64,000 nt of DNA from Siderastrea radians (Eukaryota; Cnidaria; Anthozoa; Scleractinia; Rhizangiidae), in assembly GCA_964017195.1 (NCBI GenBank), contig OZ024891.1, positions 11,256,458 through 11,320,457 on the forward strand, written 5' to 3'. Below are positions 11,031 to 51,288 of this stretch, in pieces. Position 1 is the first letter of the stretch, and each line of letters begins with the position of its first letter. Made by a program: the position numbers and the translations under genes. Below the pieces are notes generated by a model. It ran no database searches. It was not told where the DNA came from and saw only the letters and a list, made by a program, of their open reading frames with translations.

Positions 11031-11668
11031 TTATAAAAATGTTTCCTGTTCTTCATTCGACGACGTGTCTGATAGAGAACGGTGATGAATCAGAACACGA
11101 GTTTGATAAACGACGTGCGTCGTTTTAATTGCACTGTTTAATTCGTCATTTTCATTTTTTGAGCTAATTCCATTGCTACTTGAAAAGGCATTACTGTTCA
11201 AGACGTTGTCGCAGTTCTGGTGCACAGTTTCGTCTGAGTTACTGAAATCAACTGGAACATTAAGAAACGAAAGCAGCCTGTGTTCCCACAAAGGCCTTTC
11301 CAGTGGATTAGTATAGTCGATGAAATTTCTCTTCCTTAACTCTCGAGGAAGTTTACTGGAATCTTCGTCGTCAATTCTTATCATAACCAGACTGTCATCC
11401 CCTCTGTTCAGAAGACGATATTTGGCGATGTTTAGTTCGTACTTGCAGTAGTTGCTCTTTAGGAAACTGCTTGATAACACTGCTATGATTTTGCGACTCT
11501 TGTACACACTTTCCGCCATGCTTTCTTGAAAAGGCTTTCCAGGCGTAAAGTCTCTGTAGTGTATGCAACACTTTAAATGATATTTTTCTTCCAGGAGAGG
11601 AAGCAGCCTTTGACTCACCCAACGGGAATCTTCGTTGCTGTATATTATGAAAGCGTGGTAGGTGAACT
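11031..11668 (-). CDS. TIR-domain terminal exon of the receptor
   Basis: The exon starts after CTATCCATATAG in phase 1 and runs to a TAA stop. The TIR boxes are clear: box 1 [11 protein letters not shown], then [12 protein letters not shown]; box 2 (BB loop) [11 protein letters not shown] with the conserved Pro-Gly; then [21 protein letters not shown]; and a box-3 region [10 protein letters not shown]. This matches the Toll/IL-1R type rather than plant or bacterial NADase TIRs. The roughly 75-residue tail after the domain is Ser/Asn-rich and ends in E-T-F-L, which fits a class-I PDZ ligand. It also holds SNEE, which fits a short TRAF2-type consensus. Both tail motifs are weak on their own. 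Confidence 0.9.
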
Positions 11669-14600
11669 CTATATGGATAGATAAAGAACGCAAAACAGAA
11701 TAAGAAACCGAATGACTAAGACTTGCTAAGGCAGGTAGTGGACAGAAGAGGGAAATACTTACCAGAGTTCAAGATGCCACCTGAAAAAAAAAAGTTCACA
11801 ATAAGTTAACCGAAATAATGCAGTGTATTTTGATAAATATTCTGAAAATTATGGTACAGTATGGTACAGTGCAGTGCAGTATGGTATGGTATGGTATGGT
11901 ATGGTATGGTATGGTATGGTATGGTGTGGTATGGTACGGTTTAGTAAATAGACATAAAAAAAGAAAGACCAAAGATGGGTGATCTAAACAAACAAACAAA
12001 CAAACAAACAAACGATGTGAAAACGTTTTGGAGCACCGTTCTTCTTCATTTCCAGCAAATTTAGGGCTGATTCAGAAGGTATGATTTTTGCTTACGACTG
12101 GTGTATGCAAAAATGTAGCGTGCATTGCTCGCGTCAGGCAAAGATCGTAAACAACTCGTCATTCTAACAGAGTCTAGGACTGTCGTAGGGTTTTAAAACA
12201 TGTTTCAAAATCCTGCGACATTTTTCATGTTATGTGCAACTGTCGTGAGGATGTTGTACTCCTGATTTAGACGACACGATTCGTGTTGCAGTCATGACGT
12301 GGCTCGCATACAACAGTTGAAAGCAAAAATCGTACCCTCTTAATCGGCCCTTAGAGAACGAAACTAATAGCAAACATACAGAATCAAAATATAAGACAAT
12401 AAACAAAATGAAAAAAAGAGAACTACATAAATAAGAACACTGAGGTGTTTGAGTTAGTCGAGGATTAATCAGTGGATTTGACCAACCTGGTGATTTTCTT
12501 TTTTTGAAGAACAAATAGTACTTCAATAACCCAGCAATTACGGCTAACGCCACCAGAATTCCAACGGAAATGGACACATAAGTTGTGACGTGACTTTTGC
12601 CTAGAAGAAGAGAGCAAAATCATTCTAACCAATAATCCGTACAATTTGGTTAAAAAAGTCATTTTGTTATACTTAGCCCCACCCTCACTTCCTTCGAGAA
12701 AACGGTGTTTGATAAATGAGCCCAGAAAATCAATACCGCAAACGATGTTCACCCCTTCTCAAGCGTCTAAATAAAAATAAAATAAATCGACTTTGTTTAA
12801 CGAGGGCGACACCAAACAGTCCTTCAATTGATAAACCTGTGACTCTTGGATTCCAGATCGAAATTGGAAATTTTTTTTTTTTTGAGAAGGCAGGAAAATG
12901 CCGGAAGACCCCCGAAAAAAACCCCTCGGAGCAAGAACGAGAACCAACAACAAAGTTCTACCCACATAATTTTTTACGCCGGGTCCGGGAAGCAAACCAG
13001 GCCACATTGGTGGGAGGCGAGTGCTCTCACCACTGCTCCCCTAAACCAAGATCGGAACAAGAGCAAAAATGCTTATTTTAAAAAGTCAGAATCTCGTTGT
13101 ACAAAATAATAAATGAATGAACTGCCCGGTACTTTTTATTTGAACAGTTTAACAAAAAGTTCCATGACGTTTATTCCACACTTTGTAAGTAGGAAACGGC
13201 GCACTTGGATGTTTTTCTGTCAAGGCACGTGAGTGACGTCGGCGTCCCGTAGGGTCAAAATGATTTAGCAATCTCATGCAGGCAAACTGTCGCTTCAGCG
13301 ATAAAATTTATAAATTTGGAAATGTTTTTAATTAGCATAACAAATTTCACTAGTCTGTAAATTCATAATTATTAAATGACGCATACGGCGTTTAGAGAGT
13401 CGGTTGTTAGATACGAAGCGTTTATTATAGACTGAGGTCTTAATTCAATGTCCTGCGACACGTATAGACAACATCACTCCAAATTTATGTCAATATCGTT
13501 GGCTATTCGGTCCATTTTATAAGCCTCGGAAATACGTAAATTAGAGGAAGCGTTTATTGAACTTGTCCCGAAACTTTAATTAATAGCGGAGCTCCTTTGT
13601 GCCCGAAGGTCGCAGAGCGGAGCACCATGGGTAAGGAAACTTGGTAACCTATCGATGCGAAAAATTTTGGTTGTGACGTCAGCCTACGCCCGTCTGTACA
13701 GACTCTGGGGGAGCTGGGGGGAGGGGAGTCCCAAGGCAACCCAACGGGGGTGGAGTATGCCATCTTTTCTTGGCGGTAAATCGTGCGGTTCTTTTGGGCA
13801 ACCGGCGTTTTTCTTGGCGGGAAATCGCATGGCCATCGTCACTTTTGAAAAAGAGGTTCCTAGCTTAAGCTTATTTAGCAAAAGGATTGTTTGACAGTAC
13901 TGAAGTTTTAAAGTTGCGAAAAAACATCAAATTACGTTTTGAAATGGAAATTTAATTTATGTCATTAGAAATCTGTCATTTACTTTTTATTTATGTTGAC
14001 GTTGACTTTAGAAAATTATTAGAAAACGCGCTCAGATTTTAGACAGATGTAGTCTTATTATATAATATTTTGTCATGCTCAGCCGATTTTCTTTGCGTGG
14101 ACGGACCCACGATGCAGGAAGTGTAACGGGAATTGCATTTAAGTATAAACTAACGGATTTTTTAATAAACTTTTTGAAAAATGATTTCTCTGGCCATTAT
14201 TTTGTGTTTGTTTATTAATAACAGTAGGTCAAAACACAGTCGTAAGACAACAACACAAGCGTCACTTTAGTGAGTTGTCGGCGAATAATTGTCCTCAATT
14301 TTGACCGTCGGGTCCTTCTCTTTGTGCAAATGTCGATTTTCTTGTGTTAGAAGTTTTCAACAGTAATAATCTTTTAAGCGAAACAGTTGTCGGTTTAAAG
14401 CTATTTTATCCGAAGCTTCCGAAAACAGTTTTGTGCGGTACTCGAGGCGCCCAAATTTGTGTAAGGTTACTTCGCAACCGCAAAACTTATGCCATAGTTT
14501 AAAGCATGTTTGGTGTTTGTTTGTTTTCAATCTCAATGGTCTCTAGTTAGAGAACGAAATTTAACAGTTATTTATAATAAGTAACTATAAGCGAATCGAA

Positions 14601-17600
14601 GCAGTTGTCGGTTAGAGCTATTTCACCCAATAAGCTTCCGAAAACAGTTCTGTGTGTTCCCCAAAGCGCCCGAATTTCTTCGCGGCCGCTAAACTTACGC
14701 GACATTTGTTCGATAATTTACAGGTTCTTGGAAGCTCCCAAAATCCTTCTTTTGGGTAATCCCAGTAAAATGCCAGTGAAATGTCAGTATAATTTTTGAC
14801 TAGACTCTTAGTGGCAGTTCGTGTTATTCGTGTAACGTTTAATAGATAAGCTCTCTTTAATAACGTCTCGTAACAACAACAGTGGCAGTTTACAGCAGAC
14901 TCCGAGACAGCCGATTTTTTCACTCGATCAACAACGCACGTGTTCATCCCCCTCCCTAGCGAAGGAAGGGTGTTATCAATGTCCTTCCCTAAGAGGAAGT
15001 CTCCCGTCCAGGCAGGAGCATGGAAGATCCTGGCTGAACGTCTTAGTTGCAAGTCAGACTCATGGATGATAACCGTGGCATTCTCCGTAGCCGACAGATC
15101 CTCAGGAAGGGAATCTATGGCGGAGTTCTCTGGCGTCTCTATCAGAGCGTGCTTTCCAACAGTCAGACCGGTAGGCTGGCTTGCGACCTCCTTGACATCG
15201 TGCAACGTCGGCTGAAGCTGAGCAGGCCTGGCGTGATACGGTTTAAGACGGTTAAAGTGTACAATCATTCTCGTCTTCCGCTTCTCCCTTGCAGGAGCCA
15301 CTTCTTCGCACTGTATTCTGTAGGTAACATCCGATATGACTTTGACTACTTGGTACGGTCTTGAGTTTCCTTTGCAGCGTGCCTCGTAGACATCCTTCTG
15401 GTGACGGAGGCTAGTTTTCAGATTTTCTTCCACCCGTTCCTGTACTTCCTTAAGGATTTCATGCTGCTTCTTGACAGAAGATGGGTAATCGGGAGGTTGT
15501 TCCGTTGGAGGCTCGTCCCTCATTGCGTCATTAGGTAACCTCAGTTCCCTGCCAAACATGAGCATACTTGGAGAGAACCCTTTTGTTTCATGGGATGATG
15601 CTCGCAACGCCAGGGGGACCTTAGGAAGATCCCATTGATCCCATTCCTTCTGCTCCTCTGCAAACTTAGCAATAACACTGGTAACTGTTGGGATAAGCCG
15701 TTCAGCACCTCCGTCGAATTGAGGGTGGTATGGTGTTGTCCTCTGTTTGACGAACTCAATCAAGTTGCACAACCCCCGGAATGTCCGAGACTCGAAATTA
15801 CGACCCTGGTCGCTAAGCACTCCTCGAGGGCAACCGAAGCGGCACACAAAGTTGTCCATGACAGCTTGCGCGACTGTCTCGGCCACTTGATCAGGTAAAG
15901 CATACGCTTCGGCCCACTTTGCATACATGTCCTCCACAACAGCAACAACCTTGTTTCCTCTGTTGGTCTCTGGAAGTGGTCCGAGAACATCAATTTGAAT
16001 CCTCTCCAGTAGATAAAATGTCTTAATAGATTGAGGGATTAGTCCGTTTCTGGAGCCACATGTGTGACATGTTCGGGAGTACAGTTCAATATCCGCAGTA
16101 TGGCCAAACCAGTAAAAGGGTTTCCGCACAATGTCTGTAGTCTTACGCACCGAAAAGTTTCCGCACTGGTCATCTATAACTCCTGCAGCAGATGGCCCTT
16201 TAAATTCTGCGGGACACCTAACTGTAGGCTCTCACGCCCTGTCTTTTCATCAAACCATCGCCGGTACAACACTTCATCCTGCAATAGCAACCGATCGTTC
16301 CTGCTCCACAGAGACCACATATGTCGGTTGGCCCCTTCCATACCTTCTTTAGGGGGTCTCCTTCCTGCTTTCAGTCACTGCAGCAGGGCATTCAGATGTT
16401 TGTCCTTGGTTTGCTCTATTCTGAGGTGAGCACTGGACCACCGTGGGGGTGGGTGTCTGGGTTCCGACTGGTTTTTCATCCTGAACAGAAGTCGTGGCTT
16501 CATTACTAGCCGTCGCTCCAACAATCAATGGCACATAAGAAGGGCATGAGGTTTCCCTTGAACACCACTTGAAGGGATAGCATTAGCCACTGCTTCAGCT
16601 GCTGCCTTTGCTGTAGCTGATGCAATCATAGTTGAGAGCTCTGGAGCCCAGCCTGGTAGAGGTAGGTTTTGCGCTTGACAAGTTTCTTCTCCACGGGTTG
16701 ACACCTTGTTCACGACTCTTTCTCTCATTCTAACTGCTCCAAGTTCTAACGCTTCAAGCTCCAGAGCTTCTGACAGGGCTTTTATCTAACTTCAAGGGCC
16801 TAGAGCGAATTACGTCCTTTACAAGCGTTGCCCCAAGTGCATCAGTGAAATGATCTATACAAGCTTGCTCCAAGCTAGCTGGGCTCAAGGTCGGGTAAGC
16901 CTCCCCAGACAGGGGTTTAATATCAATGTTTAAATCTAACAATGTTTCTCCCACCTTTTTACGTAGGGCCTTGAACGTAGCTTTGGCGGCTTCGGGAACC
17001 TGGCGCATTCCGATTTTTCCGCGTAGAGCCTGGCTCCCGTACAAGCTCTTGTCGTTCGACGAGAGCTGAGACATAGCCACACGCGCTTTCTCCTTCATAT
17101 TCAAGATCAGTTGATTTGCTTTCTCTTTTTCGTCTCAGCTGTTCATCCTCGCACACGCCTCGACCTGATCCAAAAATGCCTGGAAGTCTGTGTCGTTGCC
17201 ACTACCCGAAAATTTTTCGGGTTTCACCCTCGTCGACGTCGCCGACTGTCCCTTAACGTACTGCTTGCTTTCCATCTCCGATACTTTCTCCAGCTCTTTC
17301 TTCGCCGATTCCCTTGCCTCATCCTTCTCACTGATTAGCTCAGACTCCTTTTTCTTCAGTTCGTCGATCTGGTGGACGACTTGTGTGTGTTCTTTCTCCA
17401 GGGTTTCAAGGTTCTCCTATGCTTGTCGCAATTCTTCGCTAGTCGATTTCAAGGTTGCCTTCGCGAACTTCAACTGCGTGGTTAGCCGTTCGATTACATC
17501 TTCCAGAATTTCCCTCGTGGCCATTTCGTCGATCCCACCGCTGCTCACCAGTGTACGGTTAATAGATAAGCTCTCTTTAATAACGTCTTGTAACAACAAC

Positions 17601-20600
17601 AGCGAAAGTTTACAGCAGACTCCAAGATGGCCGACTTATGCACTCGATCAACAACGCACGTGTTCATCACCCCAAAGTCCTGGGGCGAGGTTAATCTAAT
17701 CTCCATAGCAACGTTACATTCGTTAACATCCAAAAACAATGAAAACCCAAAACAATAACCCTGATTTACTTCACAGTAAGTTATTTTTTGTTGTTGTAAA
17801 TGAGCGTCATTTCAAATCCACTCAAGCGAACAGCCAATAATCCAAGGAGATATAACAAGCCTTGACAGTTAAATGACAGGATATGGAAACATTGCAAAAA
17901 CCAAGCAAGACGGCTCGTGAGTAAAATATGTGTTCAGTGTGATGCCCGAAAAAAATAATCAATCTGTGCTCAGCCTCTGAAATGACCCTTCGAGCTCGGA
18001 TTCACAGAACAGATCCCCAAAATATTGGAGAACAATTCGGAACACTTTCGGACTTTTTGAGAAACACTTTTTGAAAGAGAACGAGTCAAAAAAAAGACCC
18101 GAGATATATTTGGGACCAAAAAGTTTCAGGGCTATTCTTGAGAAACGAACACCAGCTTATTGCTTCGCAGCTCCGCTTTTAGGCTTGGCTAAATCTATAT
18201 ATTAAGTTGTGCGCTATAATTTTCGCTGATTTTTCTTAGTGTACGGGAAACATCAACTATCTTTAGTTTACTTCATTGTACTGTTTATCCTAATTATGGA
18301 AGGGCGCGTTTACTGGTTGTGGGGCATTTATAAGAGAGTGGGCCTTTATTTGGTCATTTGCTGTAATGGTCAAAGGGAAGATACAATATGTTTGTCAGTT
18401 GTTTACACTTTAGTCGTTGATTTTAAGTTAAAGCCTTTTATTACGCTTAAACTAAATTCTATTGTTCGCTCCATGTAAGGTAATCCAAGAGGGTCTTTGA
18501 TCCTGAACTTCTCAGTTTGGAGTCAGGATTCGTTGACCGGATTTCATTTCTTAGAATTCCAGTTTTCAAATGTATTGGGATTCTTAGGGCTGGATTCAGG
18601 GTTCCAAAGCTCTGTATTTCCGATCCCAGAGGTAATAATTTGCTGAATTTAGGACTACTAACAAATTATACTTACTTGACTGTTTATCCGCAGCGTGAGA
18701 ATCACCTATACCAGGTAAGAATAGCAGAAAAACTGTTTAAGTTAACTGAACGTGCTTTATTACACGGTGTTGTATTTCGAACTTATCAAGAGGTTAGTCA
18801 AACAATGAACGGCAGCGCAAAATTAAGCACAAAATCTAGCAGAATGAGCTTAGAAGCGCAATGTAACCTTTATGCCATGTGGATGCTTTTTGGTTGTTTG
18901 TTTGTTCCCCACCCCCCCCCCCCCAAAAAAAAAAACTAAATAAATAAGCAAATAAATAGATAGATAGATAAGAAATTGCTAATAGAGTGGTTTTGTAGCG
19001 AACAGTCCCCGCCTTTCATGGACTTCTTCCCCTGCAACAAACGTCGGTAAACAGCTAATGTTTTTGCGATTTATACTACTTTTCTAGATCAAGCTTTTTT
19101 AGTCTCCGTCCCTGTCGTGGCTCTAATAGATTATTTAGCAAATCTCGACCCACTCATTATCACCGTTATTGTAGCATAATGTTCTCATCCATCCTTGTAA
19201 TCACAGGCTGCCTTTTTAAAAGATAATTTATTAGAAACCCACCATGAGTTGTTGTCTCTCCAGTAAAACTGTATTGCCTACCTGGGCAAACTGCAACATT
19301 ACATTTCACTGTCTGAGTGATATTTCCCAAGTGGGAGCAGTCTTCTCCATAAGGACCTGGGGGAGGGTTTGTACAAGAACGGAATCGCGAGCGGCTTCCA
19401 GCCCCACAAGTTACAGAACATGGGGTCCATGGACTCCACTGGGAGTAATTGCCATTCTCTATATAAAAATATAAAATGACAATGATGTTTGTACTCTGGG
19501 CAAGAGCTCTTAAGGTAACTGTTGCTGTATACACCTTATTCACAGATGGCGGATGCAAGGGAAGAAACCTGGTATCTAGCACCAAAACGAGGCATTTTAG
19601 GATAAACAAAAAATAATTTTGCTGCTAGCGTATGCCAACTCAGCACATAATTTAGTACAAACGTCTTTAATAGCAAGCTTCCTGATACAGATTTCATTCA
19701 GGTTGAGTCAGATCATTATGTTTATTTCTGTGCTTCTTGTTATAATGCAAGAGGAAACGTAGACTCTCATGAGAAAAGAGTCTGATAATTTTGCTTTCCC
19801 ACGGATTCAAACCTTTGAGGGCAATGGTTACAGAATTAAATAAACCACCTCTTAGTTTTCTATTTTTTCTGTTCGGGCAGGAAAACCATCGACACTACTG
19901 GAAACCTCACCTTAGCCCTCGGACGTACAAGCAAAGTCACACCCCCACCGTGGTACAATTGGGGGGGGGGAGGGGTTGATGGAATCCCTTCCCCTTAGGT
20001 TTTCGTTATGTTACAATAATTCAAAAAGATTTCATCTTTAGTAGAAAGCCTGTGATGTGTTCTACAAGATGAGGTAGAAATTATGGGATGCCACGCTGCT
20101 GGGGACCTGTGACACCATTCAAGATGGCCGCCATGTTGGCCACCATCTTGGATTTTACCGAAAATTAGAAATCGTTAAAAAACGTTAAAAATTGAAACTT
20201 TTTGATGCTGGACATGTAGGATATCACATAATTAAGCATTTTGCCGCTTTTTGCATTTTTCACCTCAAAAGGGTGAAAAACAGGAATTTTTCTTAACAAA
20301 TGGCTTGACCACCTGCTACTTATGACGTATCTCGTAACCATAGCAACCGATTCTCACCAAACCTATGTCAAAATGTGTCTTAGAGATAGGTTCACAGCTA
20401 CTGAAAACGGCAGGTCTAGATGATAGTGCGTCTTGGAAAAATTCAAGGAAAACCTTTCGGGAGGGGGGCCTCCCTCCCCCCTTGTACGCCCGAGGGTTAA
20501 AATTAGCAAGACTTGAGAAATTGAGCGTTGTATTGTGCCTTGTAGTAGCCAAGGTATAAGTCGCAAATTTTGAAATTTTTACAGATGGGGAGAGTAATTT

Positions 20601-23600
20601 CTTGACCGGTATGCAAGTAATCTCTACTGTGATACAAAAGATGCAAACACAAAAGGAAATTGTTTGATTAAATGAGGAAGTATCGATTTTAAAAGAACGA
20701 CTCCAAAACTCTTAAATCCAATTGGAAAATGTTCACGCCGAATTAAGCGTCAATTCAGTGTTAAATGCCGAGTTGAATTCACGTAAGTTTGCATAGATAA
20801 TTTGCAGAATTTGATCTTATTTCGTTTTATGATGGGTTCACAAACTTGCTCACGATTCAGCGAATGCTGACATATGTAAACCCAGGGGGAAAGGACTGAA
20901 AAATGTTAGAAAGTTAACTCTTACGATAAGAACTATAGCCAAAGGGACGCAAACATACTTTACCTCAGTAAGAGATCGACAGAGAACTTTCAAACTGGAA
21001 GAATAATTTTTGCGGTTCCATATCCGCATTGCGGAAAGGATCCCATAAGAGACAATTGGTCATTTTATTTATCATCTTTCACTTAAAGATCAACTTTATG
21101 TTTCTTCGTTTGGACACTGCAATCAATATGTTTTTCCAGAAAAACAATGCTCGAAGATTTACAAAGTTTACATATCCCAAGACACTAGTCGTCCTTGTCC
21201 CAAATTTTCGGCTTTTGTACAATAAATTGTCCCAGGACAAAGAAGAAAACAATCCTTTCCTTGACTGGTGTAGTGTTCAACTCTAGAGGATTCAGGAAGA
21301 CAAAGGGTTAGCATAGATTATGTCAGGTGAAAAATTAAAAGTCGATCAACATCGAATCAACAGATAATCGAGCGATACAAGCTTACCGCTTTTAATAACA
21401 TGATGAAATTAAGTGAAACCACTGCGGCATTAAAGCCAATAAATTTACTCGTAATTTTTCATGATCAGCTAAGGTAGATTTCTTCCACATGAAGAGGATC
21501 CAGGAACCGGGATATTGCCCTCGCGAAGTACAGAACTACATACAGAACAGACATGTTTTCATTCTTCCTTCGGCGATTATCTTAAAAAACGCTTCGATTC
21601 CATGCTCGATTCCATTACCCGCCCCAAGTCAACCACCATTTGTGAATACGGGTTATTATGGTTACATTATAAAGTAGTTTCACGTAGCTTAGGTAATTCT
21701 AAGTTTCGAACGAAATTTTCGAACCGATTGTCATCAATATTCCCTTTGAAGGTCTGAAGGTCAATATTCCCTTGAAGGTCTGACAGTTTTTCGTAAAAAT
21801 GTTCAATTTCCTCCAATATTTCATCCTCCTTACATGAAGGTTTCCCGTCCGAAAGTTCTAATTCTGATATCTTTTTTCTGATGTAATTTCTCTTTTCCAA
21901 ATTGAAGAAATACTTGGTTGGTTTTTCACCTTTTTCGGTCCATCTTGCTTTTGAGCGCAGTATTAAACCGTTCGCTTTTCTCACATAGAAGAGTTGAAGT
22001 TTTTGTTTTAAGATTTCCTTTTCGGTTAGTGCATTGTTCGTAAGCGCTGAATCGGTGCTATCAGCAATCTGTTTGTCTAGCTCTTCTAGACGGATTTGAA
22101 GGTCTGATTCGCTTTTGCGTTGCTTTTTAGCCTTGTTCTTCGAGTAAGCAATGGTAAGGCCTCTTATCTCCATTTTAATGAGCTCCCAGCATAATCTTTT
22201 ATCTTCCAGTTCTCGGTATTTTTCACCTATAATAGGATAATTTTCTTTTATCAGTTTTACGTATTCTTCATCTTCAACAAGCGAATTATTAAATTTCCAT
22301 AGTCCGGGTCCTTGCTTCACTCCTAGAGGTTTTAAAGTGAGTTTTATTGCTTTGTGATCCGGCGCATTAGAAGCCTTGGTTTCAATGTTCGAAACCCAAT
22401 TGGTCAAGGGTCGTGCGACTAGGAAAAAGTCTATTCTTGAACATACTTTCAACGCTTTTGATTCATAGGAAAAACACGGTTTGCGCGGGTATTGTTTCCT
22501 AAAGACATCGATTAGTTCTAATTCTTCCATCATTGAAATTAGGCTGTCCCTATAGGTAGATGCTTTCCATGGGATGCCGCCTCTTTTGTCTTGTGATTGT
22601 AGTGTGACATTCCAGTCCCCACCTATAATGAGATTCTCTACATCCGTGTTATACATTAAATATTCATTCAGGTTATGCAAAAACACTTGTTGTTGTTGTG
22701 AATCGTTCGGAGCATAGACATTGCACAGCGAAAAATTAACTTTTTCAAGGGTTAGATCGATTGAAACAATCCTTCCCTCTTGATCTTTGCTGGACTTTTC
22801 GATTGGTAACGCTAAGCTGAGTGAAGGGTTTATGAGAATACAGACCCCTTTGCTATGAGTAGAACCGTGTGAAAAAAAATGTCACCACCCCACTCGCTTT
22901 TCCAAATTTTTTCATCGTTTGGCTCGGAATAAATTTCCTGCAGAAAATAAAACTGACAGTTTTGGTCTTTAAGATAACTAAAGATACTCCTTCTTTTTAT
23001 CTGATTCCTAAGCCCTCTAACGTTTAACGTCAGTACAGAGCAATTATCCTGTGCAACTTGGAAGGCGTAACTACATTGTTATTACTCTGAGCTGAGTGAT
23101 CCGAGGAATACATTGTGGGTAGACAGAAACATTCAGAAAATAAGTTGGTACAAAAAACATCGCTAAATAACATAAAATATGCAAACCTAAAACACCTACA
23201 CATAAACACAAATACATTTACGTACATTATCTTCGAGGAGGTTGGAAGTCCAGGGAATACCCAGCAACTTCGTTTGGCTGTATGGAATCTTTCGCCGTTC
23301 GGCGATGGAAAAGGGTAAAACAAAACATACCTTGGTTGGCACGGATTTCAATCAACTACTGGTTTAAATTCGGCCGGAATAGAGTTAATGTCATACATTT
23401 GGTTGTCAATAAACAGGCTTCGGTTGATGACTTTAGCTTCTCGTCCCTTTTCCTTTGCGACAAACATAGCTTTAATTAAAGATCTTCTTTCCTCTTGTAT
23501 TGCCCGAGCATAATCTTTGGTGATATAGGCGTTTTCTTACCTTTCGGATCTTTTTAGCCGATTTTTGACTGATAGAACTTGTTCTGTGTGTTCTCGGCTA

Positions 23601-26047
23601 ACAAATCTAGCGATTATCGGTCGTGGGCGCGGTGGCGTAGAGTTGTCTTGATCAGTTTGGGACGCTGTTTTACCGACACGGTGTACTGCATGAAACTTGA
23701 TATTTTCGGTGCTTAACTTTAGCTCATTCTCTATTATATCATAAACTATGTCCCAACAATTTTCCTCTCTTGCTTCTGGAATGTTCATGATTCTCAGATT
23801 TTCTTTTCTGGTGTAGTTCTCTAAAGCGATAAGTTTTTCTTGGGTCTCTTTGAGTGATGGTCGCATTTGATTATTGTCAGCACGAATTTGCTCTATCTCC
23901 GCTTGGAGTTCTTGGATGGTCGATGTATGCTTGTCTAGCATGTCCTGGTGAGATCTTTTTGAATCTTTATTCGTTTTCGCCTCCTGCTGGACGTCTTCGA
24001 TCTCTGCCCACGCGTTCTCGAGGGATTTTTCGATCTCCTTGATATTGACTTTGACACCATCAATTTGTACTTTGAACTCGCACCTTAGATTAGATTAAGA
24101 AATTTTTCTCATACAAGATCTTTTAAAAGATGATGGCAAATTTTTTACTTATCCGGAATTTGTCCGAAGATACGAGCTTAAGTGCAATTTTTTAACTTAT
24201 ATGCAAGTTGTCTCGGCAATCCCAAAACATTTAGTCAAAAAGGCAAGGGAAAAACATCTAGACAAGAGCACCTTTCTAGCCGTAGATGCTTTCCAACTCT
24301 CGCCCAATACTGTAATAGACCTACTCAAAATGAAAAACAAGGATTACTACTGGCTCCTAATTAACAAAGACAATCAAGAGATAAAAGCTGAAGTGAAATG
24401 GTCTCGAGACTTGCATTCGGAAGAATTTAGACTAGATGATCTTTTCAGCCGTGTTAAAAATGTTTGCAAAGAAAATAAAATGAGAGAATTTTATTTCAAA
24501 CTTATTCATAGAATAGTGGTGACCAAAAAAGAGCTTTTTTTCTTCGGTATAGAAGACGACATGTTTTGTTTATTTTGTCAAGAACCTGACTCAATAAGTC
24601 ACACTTTCTTAAATTGCCGCTGGTCAATTCAGTTCTATTCGGAGGTTATCAAGTGGTTTAACAAAGAAAATGACACCACCTTCTCGCCAAGCCCCGTAGA
24701 AATACTGTTCGGGAAAAAATCAAGCAATTGCTCTCAAGGCTCGTTTAAATTGTTAAGGAAATTTAATTATACACTCCTGTTTGCTAAATACTATCTATAT
24801 ACACAAAAACTACTCAAAAAAGAAATAAACACGAAAGAGTATATTAGGAAACTCACTTTTAAATATCAAATTGAAAAGCTATTTTGAGCAGTTATCAACG
24901 CTGTTCTCCAGCCCTCCCCACTACTCTTACTGTTAGTCATAAGAAGAATACTGTGTGGTAAACACTCCCTTTTTGTCTTTCTTTAATTTTTATGTATGTA
25001 TTCTTATTTTAGCGACGTATGTAATGTATTAAGTAATTCTACTGTAAATAATGTCACTGTATTGTATATTATTATTTAAAAAAAAAAAAATAAAAGAAAA
25101 AAAAAATAAAGTAGTTTCACAAATTAATTCTTAAGGCCCGACCAAGTAGTTTCAACATCGTAAGGTACATGGTGTACATGGTGATAACAAATGTTGATAG
25201 CATATGACAAAAGAGCTTCTTTCTCAAGCCTTTCATAATTTTGGAGCAGCCAAATTGCTATAGACTTGAGACATGAGCTATGAGAAATGTGTAGTTCATT
25301 GAAAAATTCGAGGATATAAACATAGACTATACTTTCAATTCTTGCCGAGTACTACCTGGGCAAACTGGTTTGTTGCATTCCTCTGTCTCGGTGCTGTCTC
25401 CCAGTTTAGAGCAGTCATCTCCATAAGGACCCGGCGGAGGATTTGTACAAGAACGGTTTCGGGAGCGGCTTCCCGCTCCACAAGTTACAGAACATGGAGA
25501 CCAGTCACTCCACCGAGAGTAGTTTCCATTCTCTGCATCAGGAAGAAAAACAGATACAATTAAGCCTCCGTAATCCGAGGCCTCATAACTGTCTTTAAAA
25601 TATCTGCCCTTGCCAGCTGAAGTTCACAAACTTCCTTTTAATTGAAATACACAGAATCTGGTTAAAATGGAAAAATTCTTACTTTTTCTGCAGCCATAGA
25701 GCTCTACCCTCAAAGCCATATTGATATTCTCCAGAGACGACTGTACATTGATTCTTAGGTACCGTGCTCTTATTGGTGGAAGCAGTTCGTGACCGACAAC
25801 GGTGGTGCTATCAGTATTCCCTGAAAAAATCTTCAAAAACTCTACAGTCAGGTCCAAAATGGCCATTTCAAAGAATCTTATCTATCTTTGATTACGCGCT
25901 CACAATTTACACTGGAAATTAAATACTCATTGAGACGTGAAATCTACCGGGCAAGAGCTAAATAATTAGGCAAGCCGACAGAATATTCAAAATTTTAAGC
26001 ATCCAAACATGAGAGGGACATTGGGCAGCTCTGAATATCGCAACACG

Positions 26048-26096
<49 letters not shown>

Positions 26097-29000: not shown

Positions 29001-29150
29001 GATAATTGTTTGATTGCCTGATTGATTTTCTTTGCTAGTTGATTGATTGATTTCTTAATATTAAAATGGTAATTCATTAAGCAAACAGCAAAGTAAATGT
29101 ACAAAGCTGTCATCACTAGAAGATCAATAAACACAAAAACTACAGACAAC

Positions 29151-29195
<45 letters not shown>

Positions 29196-30421
29196 AGTTG
29201 ACTGATGGGATTGCTAATTGACTGATTGATTGATTAACCTACTTATAGTATCTTTGAATTGCTAATTTGTTATGCTGACTTTTCGCACATTTATGCAAAT
29301 CTCACTGCACTGAAAATAGCCTTGGAGAGTCGGTCAAAATATAAATTAAGGTGGCTAGACCCGATTTTCACTAACCATACCTACTCTCTTTGAACATGAA
29401 ATGCAGTTATAAAGATGCCTCAAAAGAAAAGCGAAATCCAGTTATATCTATTTGTAGGGTATAGATTGAAGTTTAAAACAGTGGGGTTTTTTTCGAGATC
29501 GACATAGCCATAGCAACACGATGCCGTCATTGTCTATTTTTACTTTTCCTTACTTTGTTAGAAATCCAGACATTCGTTTTCAAAGCTATTTACAGGACTT
29601 GTAGTTCATATAATTTTCTTCAGTCGTACCGATGTTAAACAATTTTTATGAGAGCGTTTTCGAGAAATAATTTATTGAAGTTTTTAGCCGCTGCTAACAA
29701 ACGAATCATAAACAATTCTTTTCGCGTTCACATTATGGGAAATCGGATGAAGCGATTTCTTTCATCTATTCCTGCACGATAGCTGAAATCTCTAGAAAGA
29801 ATTTGAGGCCAAAGTTTTCTTTCCACGGTCAGGATGAATGTCAGTTTGTGGAACGCGAAAATAAAACAACCTCCAAACTCTAACAAATAGCAAATCCGTT
29901 TAATAATACATGAACCACCAACTTTTCGGAAAGGGCATCCAAAGGAAATGATACATTTTATACCTTTGGAAACGGTTTCCGGAAATGATGGAAATCCTCA
30001 GATGCTCGCTCCAATTCATTTTTGAGCACTTTGATGGTAAACCCATGCCATTGGCAGCGTCGCGTTTCTCCCGTTTTGTGCATTAATGTTAATTTTGAGG
30101 AAACTACCCAATGGAAACCACACTCCCCGTGTTCATTTTAACGAAGGTGTGAAGTGTCCTCCAGATTTGCTGAACTAAATAAATAAGTACAAAAAATAGA
30201 AATAAGAAATTTTAGACCTTTGGAGGTATCAGTACGACGAAAAAAACTTTTCAGTGTCAAGGTGGCAAAGAGAATGAAAAGTTATAAAATGTCAGTATTT
30301 CAGGTTGCACTGTACACTGTTAATGTTTAATTCTAATACACGTTTTCTTGTTCCATAGCTAGAGATCACACTCTTCAGGATATATAATTTTAAAATTGTT
30401 CTTCTAGTTCCACTTGAAATA

Positions 30422-30483
<62 letters not shown>

Positions 30484-39400: not shown

Positions 39401-42400
39401 CAACCTGCTGAGTGATCGAGAGAGCAAATTTGGCAAACAGTTAAAAATCAACTACGATTTGTTAGAAGTCTTGGATGGCTGGTGCTTTTCAATAAGCGGA
39501 AGAGAAATTAGAATTATATGAAGATCATCGCAGTGAAGGTGTCTCAACTTCAGCAGTTGGAAAGATACATAGCCATGATAACTAAACAAAAAGCTTTCAA
39601 TAAAAGCCTGATCGATCAGGAAACCCAAGTAATATTTCTGGACGAAGCTTACGCTGGACTGTTGGAGCCGGATGATTGGAAGGCAGATTGAGTTAACTTT
39701 GTCAACCTTTTGCTTTATATATTTTCCTTGATTTTGTTGTTTTTCTGGAACGAAAATGTTTTTTTTTCGTTTTAGGTGCTTACCCAGGGTAGACTTATGG
39801 CACCCGACCGAAAATTTAAGAGCGCTTGTCTGTAAAAATCAAACATAACGCGGCAAGGGTGGAAAATTCGATTTCTTTCATATTTTAATGTTAGATAGGT
39901 CAGGGTATAACTAAAATCACTGGACACTTTTTTTGGCAAAATATCTTTTTATTTCAAAGAAAAATGCAAATAACGAACTTCCGTTAAAATCGCCATTTGA
40001 AGCAGTAAATTATGACAATAATTTGAGGCGTTCGCGTGCAAAAACAAATCCCTCTGTCGTCTTTAAAACACCCAAAACTACTTTTGCAATCTCTCAAGAG
40101 CTTCAAAAATGATTTTGGCAGAAACTGCGTTGTTCTTTGTGCTTGAAGTAATTTAATTTTGAAAGTATACATTTCTCATCAGGAAAAGTACTTTGTGATT
40201 TAAATTATTTTTCACCATGTGCTAAACTTTCAAATCGATTCAGCTTCTGGCTGTTGAACTAAGAAAAGATGTTCTCAGGATTGCTGCAAAAATGTCTTTG
40301 GGCAAATGATTGAGAGCGACGTAAGAGCTTTTCAAAGTTCGTTAAAATGCAGGGTTTTTTTTACCCTTCCTGGCAACATTCCATTCGCGAGTCACGCACA
40401 TATTTTAATTTGTTTTTCGACCCTCATGAGATCGAACACGTCAAACAGAAAAACAGTTCGAAACGCTCTAACCTCATTCGCTGTAGAGGACAGATCCAAA
40501 GGCCATTTTCGTGTGATTCCCTTGCCGTTCGTCGTATTTTGGTCCTGCTGATGACGTCCAATGAACCGAATGAACACCGCCAACTGGGTCAACTTAATTG
40601 TTAACGGTCGAACAGCTCAACGACACCATCTTCCTGTAAAGCGTTCGACGTCTTTCTGCTCTACGGCATCTTACCCAACGGTTCAGTTGATTTAATACGA
40701 GTGTTGCTCAGTTTTCAGTGCACAAAAGCATTATCAGATTTGACTGCTAAATTGGGACCAAACGTGGATGGCGCCGCGTACATATTTGGTTTGTCACGCA
40801 ATGCGTGTCAAATGCATTTTAGGGGGTAGGGGAAGGGCAAAACCTTTGAGGTGAAGTAAAATAACATCCAGTGTTAATTGCAGGGATTATTCGTGGTTTT
40901 AATGGCGTTGTGTGTCTTTCTTACTTATTATCAGTGTTGTTACAACCATTAAAAATTGTATTTGCTACCGTAGTAGTCTGAAACGCAATTCTAACCGTTG
41001 TACAAGCTTACAGCTGAGTGGTGCAACAGAAGTGGCGCTATTATTAACTAGTCCCAACTTTAATACGGGCAAAACCTATAACTACAAGGGGCTCCCTTTA
41101 GTTAATTGATGAGCGGGTAATCTACCTATGATCATTGGTGTCAGTCTGCTGGTTCTCAGCTGGCACAGGACCGGCACAAGGCACAGTTATATCAGGAGTG
41201 AAGGTCAGCTCGCTGTTAATGTGTTGGATGGAGTTTTGGACAGGAAGGGTTCTCTCTTCATAACAAATGGGTGCGATCGAAGTTTTTAACTGTGCTCTCT
41301 TGTCAGCTATTTGACATAGTCTACATTAGTGTGTCCTGACTAATGAGTGGGGCTTCTAACAGCACGCCAGTGCTGTTTGAAGACTGTAAAATAGGGTACG
41401 TAACCATGGGAACAAAAAATGAGGTTCTGTTCCTGAATTTCTGTTTACGACAGGTTCCCAGTGAGCGAGATCTCTCACAGCAGCCAGCATACTTATCATA
41501 ATGGATATGAGGATATCATAACAGAAATACGTCAAGCACCTTGCCCTTAAACGTCTGTTACCTCTTTCACGTTCTACATACACCTTAATGAGGACGGAGA
41601 GAAGAGTGAGGCTTCCATCGATAACCTGGCTAATATTCGGATAGACCACAAGCGAATATAAAAATCACCTGATTCAACTTTTACAAGCGAACCAGGCTCG
41701 CGTAAGATAACTTCAGATCCCTTTTTCCCCAGTCCTCTTTCACTTTTTGGTCACTCTCCTTTTCCTTACCGTGACCCGGGACCCGGCCCCTTGTGCTGCA
41801 GCTTCTGCTCGACACTATTCCAAGTTTTGCACGATGGCTGGGACATATCGTCATTGTATTCAAGCGTTCGTTGTAAAAACTGACTTGTAACTTGTGGTAT
41901 CAGGCCCGTAGCAAGGCTGAAATAAATGCTGCGAGCAAATTGGCCTAGTCAAAGCCTCCCCCCCCCCCTTCAAAATACACACTCACATAGATACTAACTC
42001 TGTTAACAATGCCACAGTTTGTGTCGATTTCGTCAAAAACGACACCTTTTTGGGGACATCGTTCGTTGACAATTTGCCAAAAAGCTGCTTCCTGTTTGCT
42101 TTTTCGCCGACAAAGTTATTGGCAACATCCACCAGATTTATAGCATCAGTTTTAAAAAAGTACCCTTAAAGTTGCAAGGTTTGTTAAAATTGAAACATTT
42201 CGACAGCCAAGCTACGAATTTCGGACCTATTTTACCTAACTCTCGTAAACGTTTACGTAACTTTTATCACTCGATTGGTGAGATAAAAATAGTTTTGTTC
42301 CTTAGACTTGTTTTAAAACAACATGATGAGCTTAAAGCTTGCAGCAAATACACAACAGTCGCTTAGCTATTAAAGGCATTAAGGTCCTTCACTATACTGC

Positions 42401-45400
42401 CAGCGTCAAGGTGATATGGGTGAAGAAAGACATTGGTAAGGAACCTGGGCGACTGAAATGTGCGGTGGGCAAGTAGATTTTTGAAGCCCACTTGCCCGGT
42501 GGCTAGTGACTCAACAGAAGTCAAACCCTGTTAAAGGTTGTAAAATTATAAAAGGAACTTTTAGCATCAGCATTTAAGACTATTCGTTGCACATTAATTC
42601 GTTTTAATTACATATTTTTCGGCTCATATATTGTAATGTTTTTTCAACTTCCAAAAATTCTGGGGCCTCGAGCTCCTCCCCCTTCTATGGGCCTGGGTAT
42701 TCTTGGTGCATGAAAGTAAGGGAACAATTGTTTTCAAGCTTTTGATTCGTCTAGTGTTGTAACCACAAACTCCGGCAACAAGAAAATGGAACCGACAACA
42801 ACCGTCTTCTGTGTAACGAAGCAATTCATGTGTGTAAATTTGTATGATTTGTGAAAAAAAAAAAAGTCTGAGGTGCCCCTCTAAGCCAAAACAATAAGCA
42901 CAAACTAGTTAGTCAAATCGCAATTTCCCTGAAAAAAAAGATTTTAATGTTCTGGACTCGACGTTTTGAAGAGGTTTCTAACTTAAGCTAGTACACGTAC
43001 CCTTTTTAGCTAATTTTCGTGTTCGAACATTGTTATTTGCATGCCTACAACTCACGCCGAGGGGTGACTACTTTTTCTGCATTCTGGCAAGGGAGGTTGA
43101 AGTGCCTAAATAGAGCACTAATTTTGTTTCGTATTTTTGGTCCATTACTAGTTCCTCCCATTTCTCGGAACCTGAGCCGTTTAAAAAGAATCAGAGCAGA
43201 TTTTGCCCTTCCCTACCCGCTAGTAAAATGTCCATTCCGATGATTTGCATTGCGTGACGCAGCTCTAGATAGCACTCTGGCCACGTTAGCGGCGACATGT
43301 AGTGATAAAAAACCTTTTTGTGTATTGGCAACTAAGGAACATTGACCAGCAACTGAACCGTTGAGTAAGATGTCATAGTGTAGAAAGATGTCGAACGTTT
43401 TGCAAGAAAGGTTGTTGTTGAGCTGTTCGACCGTTTACAATACACTGACCCAGTTGGCGGTGTTCAGTGGACGTCATCAACAGGACCAAAATACGTCGAA
43501 CGGCAAGAGAATCACTCGGAAATGGCCTCTGGACTTGTCCTCTACAGCAAATGAGGTAAGAGCATTTCGAACTGTTTTTCTGTTTGACGTTTTCGATCTC
43601 AGATGGGTCGAAACACATTAAAATATGTGCGTGACTCGCGAATGGAATGTTGCCAAGAAGGGTCAAATAACCTGCATTTTAAAGAACTTTGAAAAGCTCT
43701 CGCGTCGCTCTCAATCATTTGCCCAAAGAAATTTTTGCAGCAATCCTGAGAACATCTTTTCTTAATTCAACAGACAGAAGCTGAATCGATTTGAAGGTTT
43801 AGCACATGGTGAAAAATAATTTAATTCACGAAGTACTTTTCCTGAGAGAAGAGGATGCACACCTTCTACAGTCCGTCGATGGACCGTACCATCCGAACAT
43901 CGAGAAGACCAGAGAGGAATACTTCGCTAAGAAAAAAGCCGAAGAGGAAAGAGCTCTAAAAGAAAAAGCTCAAAGCTACTACGAAGATAAATGGGCTATG
44001 ACCAAAGAAAAAGAGTTGCAAGATCTTTAAAGAAAAGAAGATGCAGCGACGGATCCAGACACCAAACGTGCTCTCGCTTACGTCATGGAAGTTGCCGTGG
44101 ATGCCTTAAAGGGGAGGTTTCAGCGAGAGGACGTACCTGGACTAAAGAAGTATGTGCTGTTGGAGCGAAGACGTGTTGCCATAGAACTTGGCTGGTGTTC
44201 ACGCGACCAAGCAGCAACGATTCAAAGCATTTGGTGCCCACTGCCATTTCCGAGAGAACAGGAATCGGACGAAGACCAAGAGATGTTCATTACACAATCG
44301 ACAGCCCTTTCACAGCTCCGTTCTCAAGTACCCAGCGAAACAAGCACCCCAAAGAAGAGAACCAAGAAGAAAGACCAATTGGAACGGGTGCCAAAACGGG
44401 GGAGCATTACAAATTTCTTTTCCCCACGCCAGCAAGGCGAACATCTGCATTGACATGGACGACTTAAAGTGAATATCGAAATAACTTGTATCTTGTTAGT
44501 TTATGACTACCCCAAATAAGCAAGGAGATCTCTACACTTTTTCATTTAAATTAAAGTCCTAGCGTAATCCAAACATGTATTGTAAGATTAATTTTGTTCA
44601 TATAATTACGTCAAGAACGAAGACTTTGTATATTTGACAGTTACGTCCAAGAGTAAACTAAAGAACTGAATTTACACATGTATACAGTAATAAAAGTCAC
44701 GTTTACAGCAAACGTATTGTCTTTATTAGTCTCAGTAATCACATTGAGCGAATTCATTTTCTAAGGACAATCTTTTGCGACCATGTGCCAATGTTCCAAG
44801 GACCTCCAGTTCACCGATTGTAGCACATCAAGTTCTTCTCGAAGAATGTCCGATCGTTGAACCGGCGACGAGATCGTGTCTAGAAATAGGCTATTTCTTG
44901 CAATATCGCGATCCTCCAGTTTTATGGCGATAAAAAGACAGGCCAGGATCAGATCTCTAAATGTAGACCTTTTCCTGTTTGAAGTTTTGTTCAAGTGTCG
45001 CCAAAGTAGACTTTCCGCCAACAAAGCCGTTTCTTTCGGGTAGTCACAGGCACAAATTTCTTCCAAAAATTCCCCATCAAATTTTAGATCGCTCAAAGAC
45101 AGGGCGGGATGTTTTTTCTACAATCCTGTCCATCTTACTCATTCGGCGCAGCAGAGAAAGAGGCAAAATGCTCTATATGTCGTCCGAATTTGTAGCGAAG
45201 AAACATTTCCAAGCATGCTCTTGGAACCGAAAACGGTATGTGATTGGCAGGCCATAACCAATCACTGCTAACTTGGGATAATGCTCTATCTTTTAGAATA
45301 TGATCCAAATTTTCTTGCTGCCCTGCTCAGGAGAGAGTTAGGTGTTCTTCCCTCGTGAAAATGAAAAGCGGGGTCCCTGAGAATCGCTTTCCACTGACCG

Positions 45401-48400
45401 AAGCCGTATCGCTTAAGTCCAGCTTTCTCGCGCCAATTTCTGTTTTTCTAGCGTATCGTGTTTTAGTGATCGTTTCGTCTTCGTCGGTTAGAGAACTATC
45501 GCTTTTGTCAGCACTGTGCTCTTGTGAAGAAGTTGACTTGTCTGAAAGTCTCGAGAGCACTTCCATTTCTAGCTCCGTTCCCTTGTCGCCGTGTAGTTTT
45601 TCCAAACATTTGTGCGCTCTACTGGCGACCTTGCGCGATCGTTGTTTTTGATAGTGAACCTTTGCCACGACAGAGCTGTGTTTCTGGTCTTCGGAAACTG
45701 TGCTTTGCGCACTGCTGCTAAGATGTCTAGTACTTGCCGTCTCGACTATTTATCGATAGCAAGTCGGATGAACGTACTTGCCCGTTCCATCGAAGAAAAG
45801 TTTACTCATTAGTTCTCCTAGCTTGTTGTGTTGTCCTCCATTTCTCGTCACTAAAACATAATCACAGTTCGGCTTGAGCAGAGGGCGAATATGATTGATG
45901 TAGCCATCTAGCACTTGCATGCTAGTCTCGGTCAGGTAAAGAGAATTAAAGCCATATTTTCCTGCTGTTTTGAACATTTTCTGATCAATAAATCCACCGT
46001 TAGTTTTAGCTTTGTTCACCATTTCAACAGTTAAATACCGATATGCCATCGGGCGCGAGTCTTTAACCTTGATGAACAAATATACGGCGAGAAATTTGGT
46101 AGCAAAAGATAAGTCAAATGGGGATATCAAACCTGGATTATCCTTGCATGACTTCAGCACGCTTTCGTAGCGCGGCAAGTATCGCCCCACGACTTCCAAG
46201 AGCTCTTCGAACGTGGCCCAGTGTCCCTTGGCTTCTAAGGCGTCGATATCGAGTTCGCTCGTCCATTGTAATCGCATCATCTTGGAGACGGTTTTGCGCA
46301 CTTTCTTCAAGTACAGTTCTGTACAAGATAACCCTCTTAATACCGATTCCGAAGCTCCATTAACTTTTCTGAAATCCCCCAATTCTGCAATGGCGTCCAA
46401 GTAGCCTATGCTCCCTGCATGCCCGAGATTCCACTCATCTTGCATCATGTCAACAAATTTGTAAAGGAGATTAGGCGAACATAGACTAAAGTCAACTATT
46501 TCAAATGTGAGATCCTCATCGTCTTCGCAACAGTATTTAAGAAATTACAAACACCTGCTGACAATTTGGTGTGCTTGCCGATTGCTTTTACAACCACCAC
46601 CACTGCGGGTAAGCCAGGACAAGAAATCTTGAGCGATTTTGCTTGACATGTCAAAAGAGAGAGCTCGTCTGATTTTAAGTAAAGTCTTGTCATCATTGGC
46701 GTCATTTTTGTTGCTTTGTTGTTGGCATGCTTCAGTCTGAGTAATGTTTGGCTTTTCGTCGAAATAAAAGTACCAACGGTGTTTGTTCTTGGCGAGTTTT
46801 CTGCAGCCTCTTTGTGTGGTAAATCCATCATGCTTACAGCCTTGCACTGGGCAGTGAAAAAGGCCATCAGAGTCGTCTTCTTCTAAGTGAAGCCTTTTGG
46901 GTTTAGGCGACGCGTTTGGTAGTTTTGACCAGTCGATTTCCACTCCTCTTTTACTCATCTTTTAAGATCTGATATTGTGAAGTTTCTCACGAGACTACTG
47001 TATTTATACCAAATAGCTGACTTGGTATCCTATCCACTCGATATCTGGCCCGTTTTCTACACAATAAAACCAAACAAAGGAGCAGACAAAGGAACAATTA
47101 TGCAAATTAGCTGAGGGCACATTCAATGTGCCCTCAGCTAATTTGCATAAGTAACTTTATGCCATGGTTTGACACCTTGTAGCTTCATGAAGATGGGATG
47201 AGGTGTTATTTCAATTAGTTGTGTGCTGTAAAAGATGACAATGCTGAGTGATGTTTATTACAGGTCATTGCGGATAAAAATAATTTGCCTTCTCAGTCAC
47301 TTTGTTTAGTAGCCTGCGTAGCTGGCGGTATTTTTCCTCGCGAAGGCAAAAACGAGCGCCAACAATATCGCATCCTACGCTTTCTAATTTAATAGGCTAA
47401 GCTGGTAATAATGATTACGACAGAGCCATGATGTCGAAAAACATTTATTTTAATTTTTCGGGGTATTATTTGCCTTGCTCCAGCACCAAACACTACAAGC
47501 TAAGGCTTAGGCGAGATGACACAATACATCGCCTATTTAAGCCAGCTATTATCGCTCGATCGCTTTTGATTGCTGCAACGACAGAATAAGCCAAAGCGCG
47601 ATGTTATACATTCCGCTTCCAGGTATCTGCTACCCAGGGAAGACAGAATAAGTTAAAGCGCAATTTTAGACATTCCGCTTCCAGGTAACTGCTAGTCCCA
47701 AGACAGAATAAGCTAAAACGTTAGACAACATTCCGCTTCCAGGTATCTGCTACCCAAGGAAGACAGAATAAGCTAAAGCGCAATGTTAGACATTCCACTT
47801 CCAGGTATCTGCTACCCAAGGAAGACAGAATAAAGCTAAAGCGCGATGTTAGACATTCCGCTTCCAGGTATCTGCTACCCAAGGAAGACAGAATAAGCTA
47901 TTAAAAGCGCGATGTTAAGCATTCCGCTTCCAGGTATCTGCTACCCAAGGAAGACAGAATAAGCTAAAGCGCGATGTTAGACATTCCTCTTCCAGGTATA
48001 TGCTACCCAAGGAAGACAGAATAAGATTAAGCACGATGTTAAACTTAACGCTTCCAGGTATATTCTACCCAAGGAAAACTGAATAAGCTAAAGCGCAATG
48101 ATAGCGATCCAGTTTCCAGGTACAGCATATTATCTAAGGAAATCAGAATAAAGAGCGCGATGCTAATATTTCGTCTCAAGGTATGTACAAAATCGTAATT
48201 ATGATTGCTACTTACCAAAGGCCTCTTGTCTCTTTTTGTCTCGATTCCATAGCATCGTAGATCGGTCACGTCGTTAAGACGCAACGATTTTCAAAACCTC
48301 ATATTTCCCGCCAGCATTGTGTTACACGCAAAACACAAATGCAATATCATGTTTTGAAGAAAACCTGGTATTACCCAAGATGTCGCTACAATAATTAGGT

Positions 48401-51288: not shown

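Follow-up and report, generated by a model that had tools for sequence, protein, structure and literature searches.

Structure of the receptor gene

The window analysed here, a stretch of 64,000 nucleotides at C5:11256458-11320457 in the 804.8-Mb, 439-contig genome of Siderastrea radians, carries on its minus strand a gene whose exons encode discoidin (F5/8C), thrombospondin type 1 (TSP1), transmembrane (TM) and TIR parts. An earlier note on this DNA had joined nine minus-strand exons in phase, and we confirmed this join: all introns are GT-AG, and the frame is kept at all eight junctions. The domain order that it proposed, F5/8C-F5/8C-TSP1-TSP1-TM-TIR, agreed with the Pfam matches as far as it went; its 5' end was incomplete, and a third F5/8C domain was missing from that model. 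The full order is F5/8C x3 - TSP1 x2 - TM - TIR, encoded in 12 in-phase GT-AG exons (Table 1), and the 846-residue product has Pfam matches to three F5/8C, two TSP_1 and one TIR domain. Neither a stop nor a frameshift was found in the 12 joined exons. The TM exon has no Pfam match and contains one long hydrophobic stretch followed by KKRK; the stretch that matches it is prominent by hydropathy in two proteins of the coral Oculina patagonica, P0010 and P0003. Contamination was set aside as a source of the sequence, the window sitting inside a 57-Mb contig of the 805-Mb genome.

Table 1. Exons and exon-like features of the receptor locus (window positions unless prefixed by C5)
Feature	Position	Strand	Evidence and remarks
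Exon z0	C5:11329465-11329398	-	In phase; beyond the window's right end
Exon z1	C5:11328475-11328233	-	In phase; partner of z2; z0 and z1 lie 7.8-9.0 kb past the window's right edge
Exon z2, second half of a third F5/8C lying N-terminal to 'a'	57070-56929	-	Pfam F5_F8_type_C 5.1e-8; in phase with F5a1
Exon F5a1, first part of F5/8C 'a'	51288-50966	-	Pfam F5_F8_type_C 9.8e-12; splice sites, phase
Decayed duplicate of exon F5a2	50562-50515	-	15 residues then a stop, by eye; probably unused
Exon F5a2, second part of F5/8C 'a'	50114-49973	-	Pfam F5_F8_type_C 1.1e-4
Exon F5b1, first part of F5/8C 'b', three variable loops	34350-33998	-	Pfam F5_F8_type_C 3.4e-15
Exon F5b2, second part of F5/8C 'b'	25830-25683	-	Pfam F5_F8_type_C 2.9e-5
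Exon TSPa, TSP1 repeat with CSVTCG	25532-25356	-	Pfam TSP_1 8.2e-13
Exon TSPb, second TSP1 repeat with CSVTCG	19458-19282	-	Pfam TSP_1 6.9e-12
Exon TM, one transmembrane helix and basic stop-transfer stretch	12600-12487	-	Sequence
Microexon of 18 nt between TM and TIR	11780-11763	-	In phase
Exon TIR and C-terminal tail, ending QETFL-stop	11668-11031	-	Pfam TIR_2 3.8e-20, TIR 3.0e-13
Signal-peptide-like start exon MKATVKILLLCHLLLRIG	9835-9782	-	Probably of the next downstream copy, not of the window receptor gene

The 5' end and the neighbouring copies

A neighbouring copy, g1 (C5:11199-11217 kb), has exons z0, z1, z2, a1, a2, b1, b2, TSP, TM and TIR on the same strand within about 17 kb. Its single TSP1 repeat has lost a cysteine (CSVSFG instead of CSVTCG) and, given that loss, g1 may not be intact. 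Because the exon order recurs on the same strand in g1, and in predicted proteins of two other corals, it is beyond chance.

The start exon of the window gene was not located: between z0 and the exon that comes next upstream no signal-peptide exon turned up, and probing with the signal-peptide pieces of relatives did not reveal one either. The surroundings of the signal-peptide-like exon at the left of the window match those of a like exon before g1 (76% of nucleotides over 318 columns), and a related stretch lies at C5:11395944, upstream of a further copy, gene3. This copy is a z-a-b set (C5:11330-11363 kb) that has no TSP, TM or TIR exon of its own, and its last F5/8C half-exon sits just upstream of z0; the transcript of the window gene may therefore start there. 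It is possible, as a candidate model only, that the transcript begins in gene3 and encodes six F5/8C domains. The b1 exon of gene3 (C5:11338450-11339300, L020) is split by some 340 bases with GT/AG ends, whose removal keeps the frame by eye, and this insert looks like a gained intron.

Retroelement remnants lie in the introns of the window receptor at 14618-16231 (-), 21667-22881 (-), 24099-24887 (+) and 53335-53901 (-), with Pfam matches to integrase core, endonuclease, zf-RVT and reverse transcriptase, of which all but the first fall short of the Pfam thresholds; such insertions could account for the length of the gene, tens of kb as against about 17 kb in g1. The 15.6-kb intron between F5a2 and F5b1 also contains, at 44761-45117 (-), an ORF with a Cyclin_N match (9.4e-9), adjoined by ORFs at 45327-46961 (-) that have no Pfam match; the Cyclin_N ORF is a nested gene, a retrocopy or part of a mobile element. 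A fibronectin type II domain ORF (2306-2554 (-), 2.1e-10) lies downstream of the TIR exon, and a long simple repeat of the CTA/TAT type (51444-51891) just upstream of F5a1.

The array of TIR receptors on C5

The TIR exon, used as a query, matched 79 places in the genome. C5 carries 22 distinct TIR exons, 20 in the interval 11.18-12.50 Mb and the others at 22.27 and 22.38 Mb, a list from which a TIR remnant near g1 (C5:11219 kb) is missing. The TIR at C5:11790224 is identical to the window TIR in protein and 99.7% identical in nucleotides, and that at C5:12089067 is a 96% copy; some of these near-identical copies may be haplotypes that the assembly did not collapse.

Among the TIRs at least 61% identical to that of the window, 12 of 13 have an F5b1 and/or TSP exon upstream on the same strand, against none of the nine below that value (Fisher 2e-5, with the cut set after the identities were known). 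F5, TSP and TIR exons stand in order at six of the 22 TIRs by script and at nine when three are added by eye (11491874, 12326937 and 22267510, where the script failed only on account of another TSP exon further upstream). The nearest TIR lay downstream and on the same strand for 12 of the 15 F5b1 hits and did not for the other three, and the best 23 TSP-exon hits all fall within the two C5 clusters. Exon counts from these genome searches are lower bounds, 150 of 961 candidates having been scored for F5b1 and 150 of 846 for TSP. Exons for another, orphan ectodomain lie at C5:11185-11195 kb and 11409-11417 kb; they stand upstream of array TIRs (at 11402 kb and at 11185-11195 kb), so that two receptor types are interleaved.

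The TIR domain and its tail

A comparison of the TIR exon with the PDB returned 44 matches with E up to 0.01, led by TLR6 (1.7e-22), TLR1 (7e-22) and TLR2 (8e-22) and followed by TLR10 (5e-16), TLR3 (2e-11), MyD88 (3e-11) and the IL-1R family (8e-6 and weaker). The conserved BB loop is present, RDFTPG in the window TIR aligning to RNFVPG of TLR1/6. With the modelled structure of the exon (mean pLDDT 74.4, with blocks of 83-96 across the first 140 residues), Foldseek placed TLR1 and TLR2 first and MyD88 next. These comparisons support the prediction of a TLR-type signalling TIR. A SARM-like NADase was also considered and set aside, SARM1 being absent among the same 44 matches.

A TIR phylogeny, proposed as a check in the earlier note, placed the window TIR in a coral clade, away from the genome's LRR-type receptors. 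In this tree of 49 TIRs, with long branches flagged among the outer rows, the clade (92/98, branch not starred) also contains coral TIR proteins with another ectodomain. The F5/8C-TSP1 type requires three changes on the tree and has one origin in 7% of bootstrap trees, a result that fits either a single or a repeated origin; the window receptor and g1 take no settled place in the tree.

The protein ends in T-x-L, as do g1 and nine of the ten Oculina and Desmophyllum proteins described below (11 of 12 in all, P0010 being the exception and P0006 and P0012 having one tail in common). We take this tail to resemble a class I PDZ ligand, a putative likeness. An S/T-x-hydrophobic end occurs in 8 of 23 other coral TIR proteins listed, and a tail of this kind is thus not unique to the family.

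The same architecture in other corals

We looked for relatives among 5.8 billion proteins with the TM-TIR part, a query of 191 residues that gave 37 hits out of 2622 candidates, and in further searches with the ectodomain (278 hits) and with a profile (871 hits from 7976 candidates scored); in each of the last two, 120 hits were listed. Of the 37 TM-TIR hits, ten carry F5/8C, TSP_1 and TIR together, the combination that the earlier note proposed to look for in anthozoan transcriptomes: nine are from Oculina patagonica and one from Desmophyllum pertusum, all of them called hypothetical or uncharacterized; these may contain two models of one gene, as P0006 and P0012 appear to be. Because such unnamed records of the same architecture already exist in databases, F5/8C-TSP1-TM-TIR is a family and not a single oddity. 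The Oculina loci are numbered between ACROYT_G037040 and 037067, which points to a cluster there too.

We confirmed the domain content of four Oculina proteins (P0003, P0005, P0008 and P0010) by a Pfam rescan. There are five F5/8C domains in P0003 (1177 aa) and three in P0010 (825 aa), with a single TSP1 and a single TIR in both. Their N-termini look signal-peptide-like by eye, and a 19-residue hydropathy cut flags the TM stretch only. The full-length predicted structure of P0010 has a mean pLDDT of 39.8, and no claim here rests on it. Between the window receptor and four Oculina proteins, identity is highest in the TIR (77-82%), followed by F5z (65-70%), F5a (58-66%), TSP (53-61%) and F5b (52-55%), and lowest in the tail (24-33%).

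Among the ectodomain matches listed, F5/8C and TIR occur together only in Oculina patagonica and Desmophyllum pertusum, and among the profile matches listed the ten proteins with both are again nine from Oculina and one from Desmophyllum. One of these nine Oculina proteins, P0155, has F5/8C and TIR without TSP1. F5/8C-TSP1 proteins without TIR are found, among the matches listed, in Stylophora, Pocillopora, Porites, Oculina and the anemone Actinostola, among others, so within these matches the ectodomain type is more widespread than its TIR fusion. Five of them (P0040-P0043 and P0045) have ectodomains up to about 55% identical to that of the window receptor and, unlike it, no TIR in the precomputed Pfam list; in 15 such TIR-less proteins hydropathy gave no stretch, except an N-terminal one in four.

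The nearest TIR relatives outside the family, by the tree, are orphan-ectodomain proteins (P0009, P0013, P0014, P0019 and P0024; TM read by eye). Unlike the window protein, they have TIR as their only Pfam match at 0.001 (5/5 scanned). Their ectodomain, which carries the motif FGQY-NTS-W--N-SWT, accompanies a TIR of this type in proteins of Oculina, Porites, Montipora and Acropora. A separate Oculina protein, P0034 (ACROYT_G036957), combines LDL-receptor class B/A repeats with the same TM and, after it, a truncated TIR; either the ectodomain has been swapped once more or the gene model is a fusion.

Divergence of the discoidin loops

For F5b, the third discoidin domain, a close relative of window F5b1 stands at C5:12122045, in an array copy whose TIR is 98.1% and whose TSP exons are 98.9% identical to those of the window in DNA. 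With loop borders taken at first from this pair alone, replacements had occurred in 19 of 22 loop codons, with no silent change, against 4 of 95 codons elsewhere; once the borders were set by conserved anchors, the two copies differed at 19 of 34 loop positions and at 2 of 66 in the framework (p 2e-9). At the nucleotide level, 30 of 66 positions differ in the loops and 10 of 285 in the framework. Over the whole F5b1 exon dN/dS is 1.27, against 0.29-0.30 in the TSP exons, the latter values resting on one or two changes each. In the TIR, compared here with the 12089k copy, dN is 0.014 and dS 0.040. Against the more distant copy at C5:22255k, dN/dS is 1.00 for F5b1 and 0.30 for the TIR.

Four further array pairs gave loop against framework changes of 1/26 vs 2/66, 5/24 vs 3/66, 6/24 vs 4/66 and 8/26 vs 5/66; three of these show a weaker trend in the same direction and one, the g1-11647k pair (1/26 vs 2/66, p 1), shows no excess. 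Pooling the five pairs yielded 39 replacement and 3 silent codons in the loops and 16 and 17 in the framework (p 1.8e-5). The pool leaves out the identical-copy pairs (11733k with g1, 12316k with 11932k), the 11571k pairs and the controls; the 11932k copy contains a stop, and no TIR on its strand is assigned to it. Tested against a neutral replacement share of 0.80, the pooled loop excess has p 0.02, or 0.005 with transitions weighted twofold, and without the window pair it is not significant (p 0.15). Because TIR-less controls have faster loops as well (7/26 vs 4/71 in the pair 13886k-52562k), fast loops are common in the discoidin domain; the window pair is extreme, and the strong result is that of this one pair.

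In an alignment to the factor VIII C2 domain, which we numbered after the published residues, loop 1 falls over the M2199-F2200 loop, loop 3 over the L2251-L2252 loop, and loop 2 starts from R2220. These residues are tied to membrane binding in the available portion of PMC9643838. The loops of the 12122k copy contain many F, W and L residues.

This pattern could stem from selection or from gene conversion of the framework. We give a substantial, if lesser than even, chance to non-adaptive variation, in which conversion would have homogenised the framework and the loops would be old neutral divergence or donor-derived sequence. Parts of the array reach 99.7% identity between copies, a sign of active exchange or recent duplication; the contrast between loop and framework nucleotides in the close pair, and the loss of significance once the window pair is removed, fit such an account as well. 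Under it, however, three separate short tracts within one exon would each have to escape conversion, and the 39 to 3 ratio of replacement to silent loop codons over five pairs also speaks against it.

Interpretation

We believe that the locus as a whole is probably best explained as encoding a diversifying discoidin-TSP1-TIR surface receptor, one of an array, that signals through a MyD88-type adaptor. Observed are the gene anatomy, the homology, the array and, in one pair, the loop divergence; from these we infer the ligand, the adaptor, the NF-kB output and a role in defence. The discoidin tips, through loops that align with the lipid-binding loops of factor VIII C2, would bind lipid, glycan or protein, and their target may be microbial or altered host surfaces. 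The TSP1 repeats would form a stalk able to bind glycosaminoglycans. Clustering driven by the ligand would bring the TIR domains together and recruit MyD88-type TIR adaptors, leading to NF-kB signalling. As array copies diverge in their loops under a constrained TIR, the range of ligands could widen while the output stays the same.

Given the array and the variable loops, recognition of microbes is plausible. The earlier note had suggested that the receptor could couple recognition of microbe or symbiont surfaces to MyD88/NF-kB signalling; a special role in recognising algal symbionts we found unsupported: of the two species named above, Desmophyllum pertusum is a deep-water coral without algae. 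We regard as unlikely, though well short of far-fetched, a receptor that reads not microbes but self, by sensing phosphatidylserine or matrix where coral cells are damaged or dying, or that serves adhesion or development. Factor VIII, an F5/8C relative, binds phosphatidylserine (available portion of PMC9643838), the TSP1 repeats bear CSVTCG, given as a CD36-binding motif in the accessible part of PMC5446238, and the F-, W- and L-rich loops of the 12122k copy would also suit such a ligand; yet it is not obvious why an unvarying self ligand should favour divergent loops and a large array.

Decay of the window copy into a pseudogene of a working family is improbable. The introns enlarged by retroelement remnants, the unplaced start exon and the stops in the TIR of other array copies are what one might expect of it, but the twelve exons are free of stop and frameshift, the TIR differs from the 12089k copy with dN well below dS, and from the 11790k copy by no amino-acid change. 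That two adjacent genes, one for a secreted F5/8C-TSP1 protein and a separate one for TM-TIR, have been joined on paper only is very improbable: TIR-less F5/8C-TSP1 proteins do occur in several corals (P0066 and P0070 in addition to the five above), and 7 TSP and 2 F5b1 array exons have no assigned same-strand TIR, but splice sites and phase fit at 8/8 junctions, order and strand are repeated in g1 and in other array copies, plus-strand ones included, and the gene models of both Oculina patagonica and Desmophyllum pertusum join the parts. The window locus is most likely one gene encoding a single-pass type I membrane receptor, in a tandemly amplified array. From its N-terminus the receptor would comprise a signal peptide, at least three discoidin domains, the two TSP1 repeats, the TM, a brief cytoplasmic linker that includes the microexon, the TLR-type TIR and a variable tail with T-x-L at its end.

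Coral health depends on telling symbionts, pathogens and the coral's own damage apart, and a discoidin-TSP1 ectodomain on a TLR-type TIR would add recognition chemistry to the TIR pathway. The most interesting new point, in our view, is the loop divergence on a discoidin scaffold within an expanded array: the array offers many natural loop variants on one scaffold, and their ligand range is open to direct testing.

Relation to known receptors

Receptors with TIR domains in animals are usually described with LRR or Ig ectodomains. The window protein has in common with Toll-like receptors of the TLR1/2/6/10 type a type I layout, one TM and a TLR-type TIR, and differs from them in the ectodomain: theirs is made of LRRs, and there is no LRR match in the 846-residue product. 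Long LRR-like frames (LRR by eye) ending in TIR do occur on C4 of the same genome, and their TIRs stand apart from that of the window in the tree. Cnidarian IL-1R-like proteins (Ig-TIR) have the same ectodomain-TM-TIR layout with an Ig ectodomain, to which the product likewise has no match; one of them, Montipora P0033, shows 50% identity across 71% of the query region and falls outside the clade that holds the window TIR (92/98, branch not starred).

From its ectodomain, the window protein would be compared with other discoidin and TSP1 proteins. Its F5/8C domains match factor VIII (6e-50), neuropilin-2 (3e-40), DDR2 (2e-22) and lactadherin (4e-18); the factor V/VIII C domains, neuropilin b1/b2, lactadherin and DDR2 have F5/8C in common with it, accompanied by other domains and no TIR. 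DDR1/2 differ in having an intracellular tyrosine kinase, and the 846-residue product has no kinase match. With the cnidarian TSR superfamily (Neubauer et al. 2017, PMC5446238, in the portion available) it shares TSP1 repeats with CSVTCG and WxxW, and the term TIR is absent from the main text of that survey.

TIR expansions, Ig-TIR, TIR-only, SARM-like and novel TIR architectures are described for actiniarians and corals in the accessible portions of PMC5094078 and PMC10236652, the former also giving MyD88 as single-copy in three anemones, and those portions name no F5/8C-TSP1-TIR receptor. Among the papers listed by our full-text searches, none was recognisable by title, opening of the abstract or passage as describing one, in line with the earlier note, which knew of no such receptor; this is a weak negative, as the slash in 'F5/8' is unsearchable and subscription papers lay outside the scope. 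The receptor architecture is real and, as far as could be searched, undescribed. By the usage in the available part of PMC8260672, TIR plus TM alone is 'TLR-like', a term that would cover the window protein; we consider it best filed among TIR transmembrane receptors, and not as a TLR or an IL-1R.

More tentatively, the locus may belong to a germline TIR array in which a discoidin scaffold with three hypervariable ligand-binding loops is combined with a shared TM-TIR that is also used on the orphan ectodomain, a reading that we hold possible and short of probable. If true, some stony corals would recognise surfaces with a varied set of receptors that all feed one signalling output, the loops being in principle like antibody CDRs or the LRR variation in VLRs.
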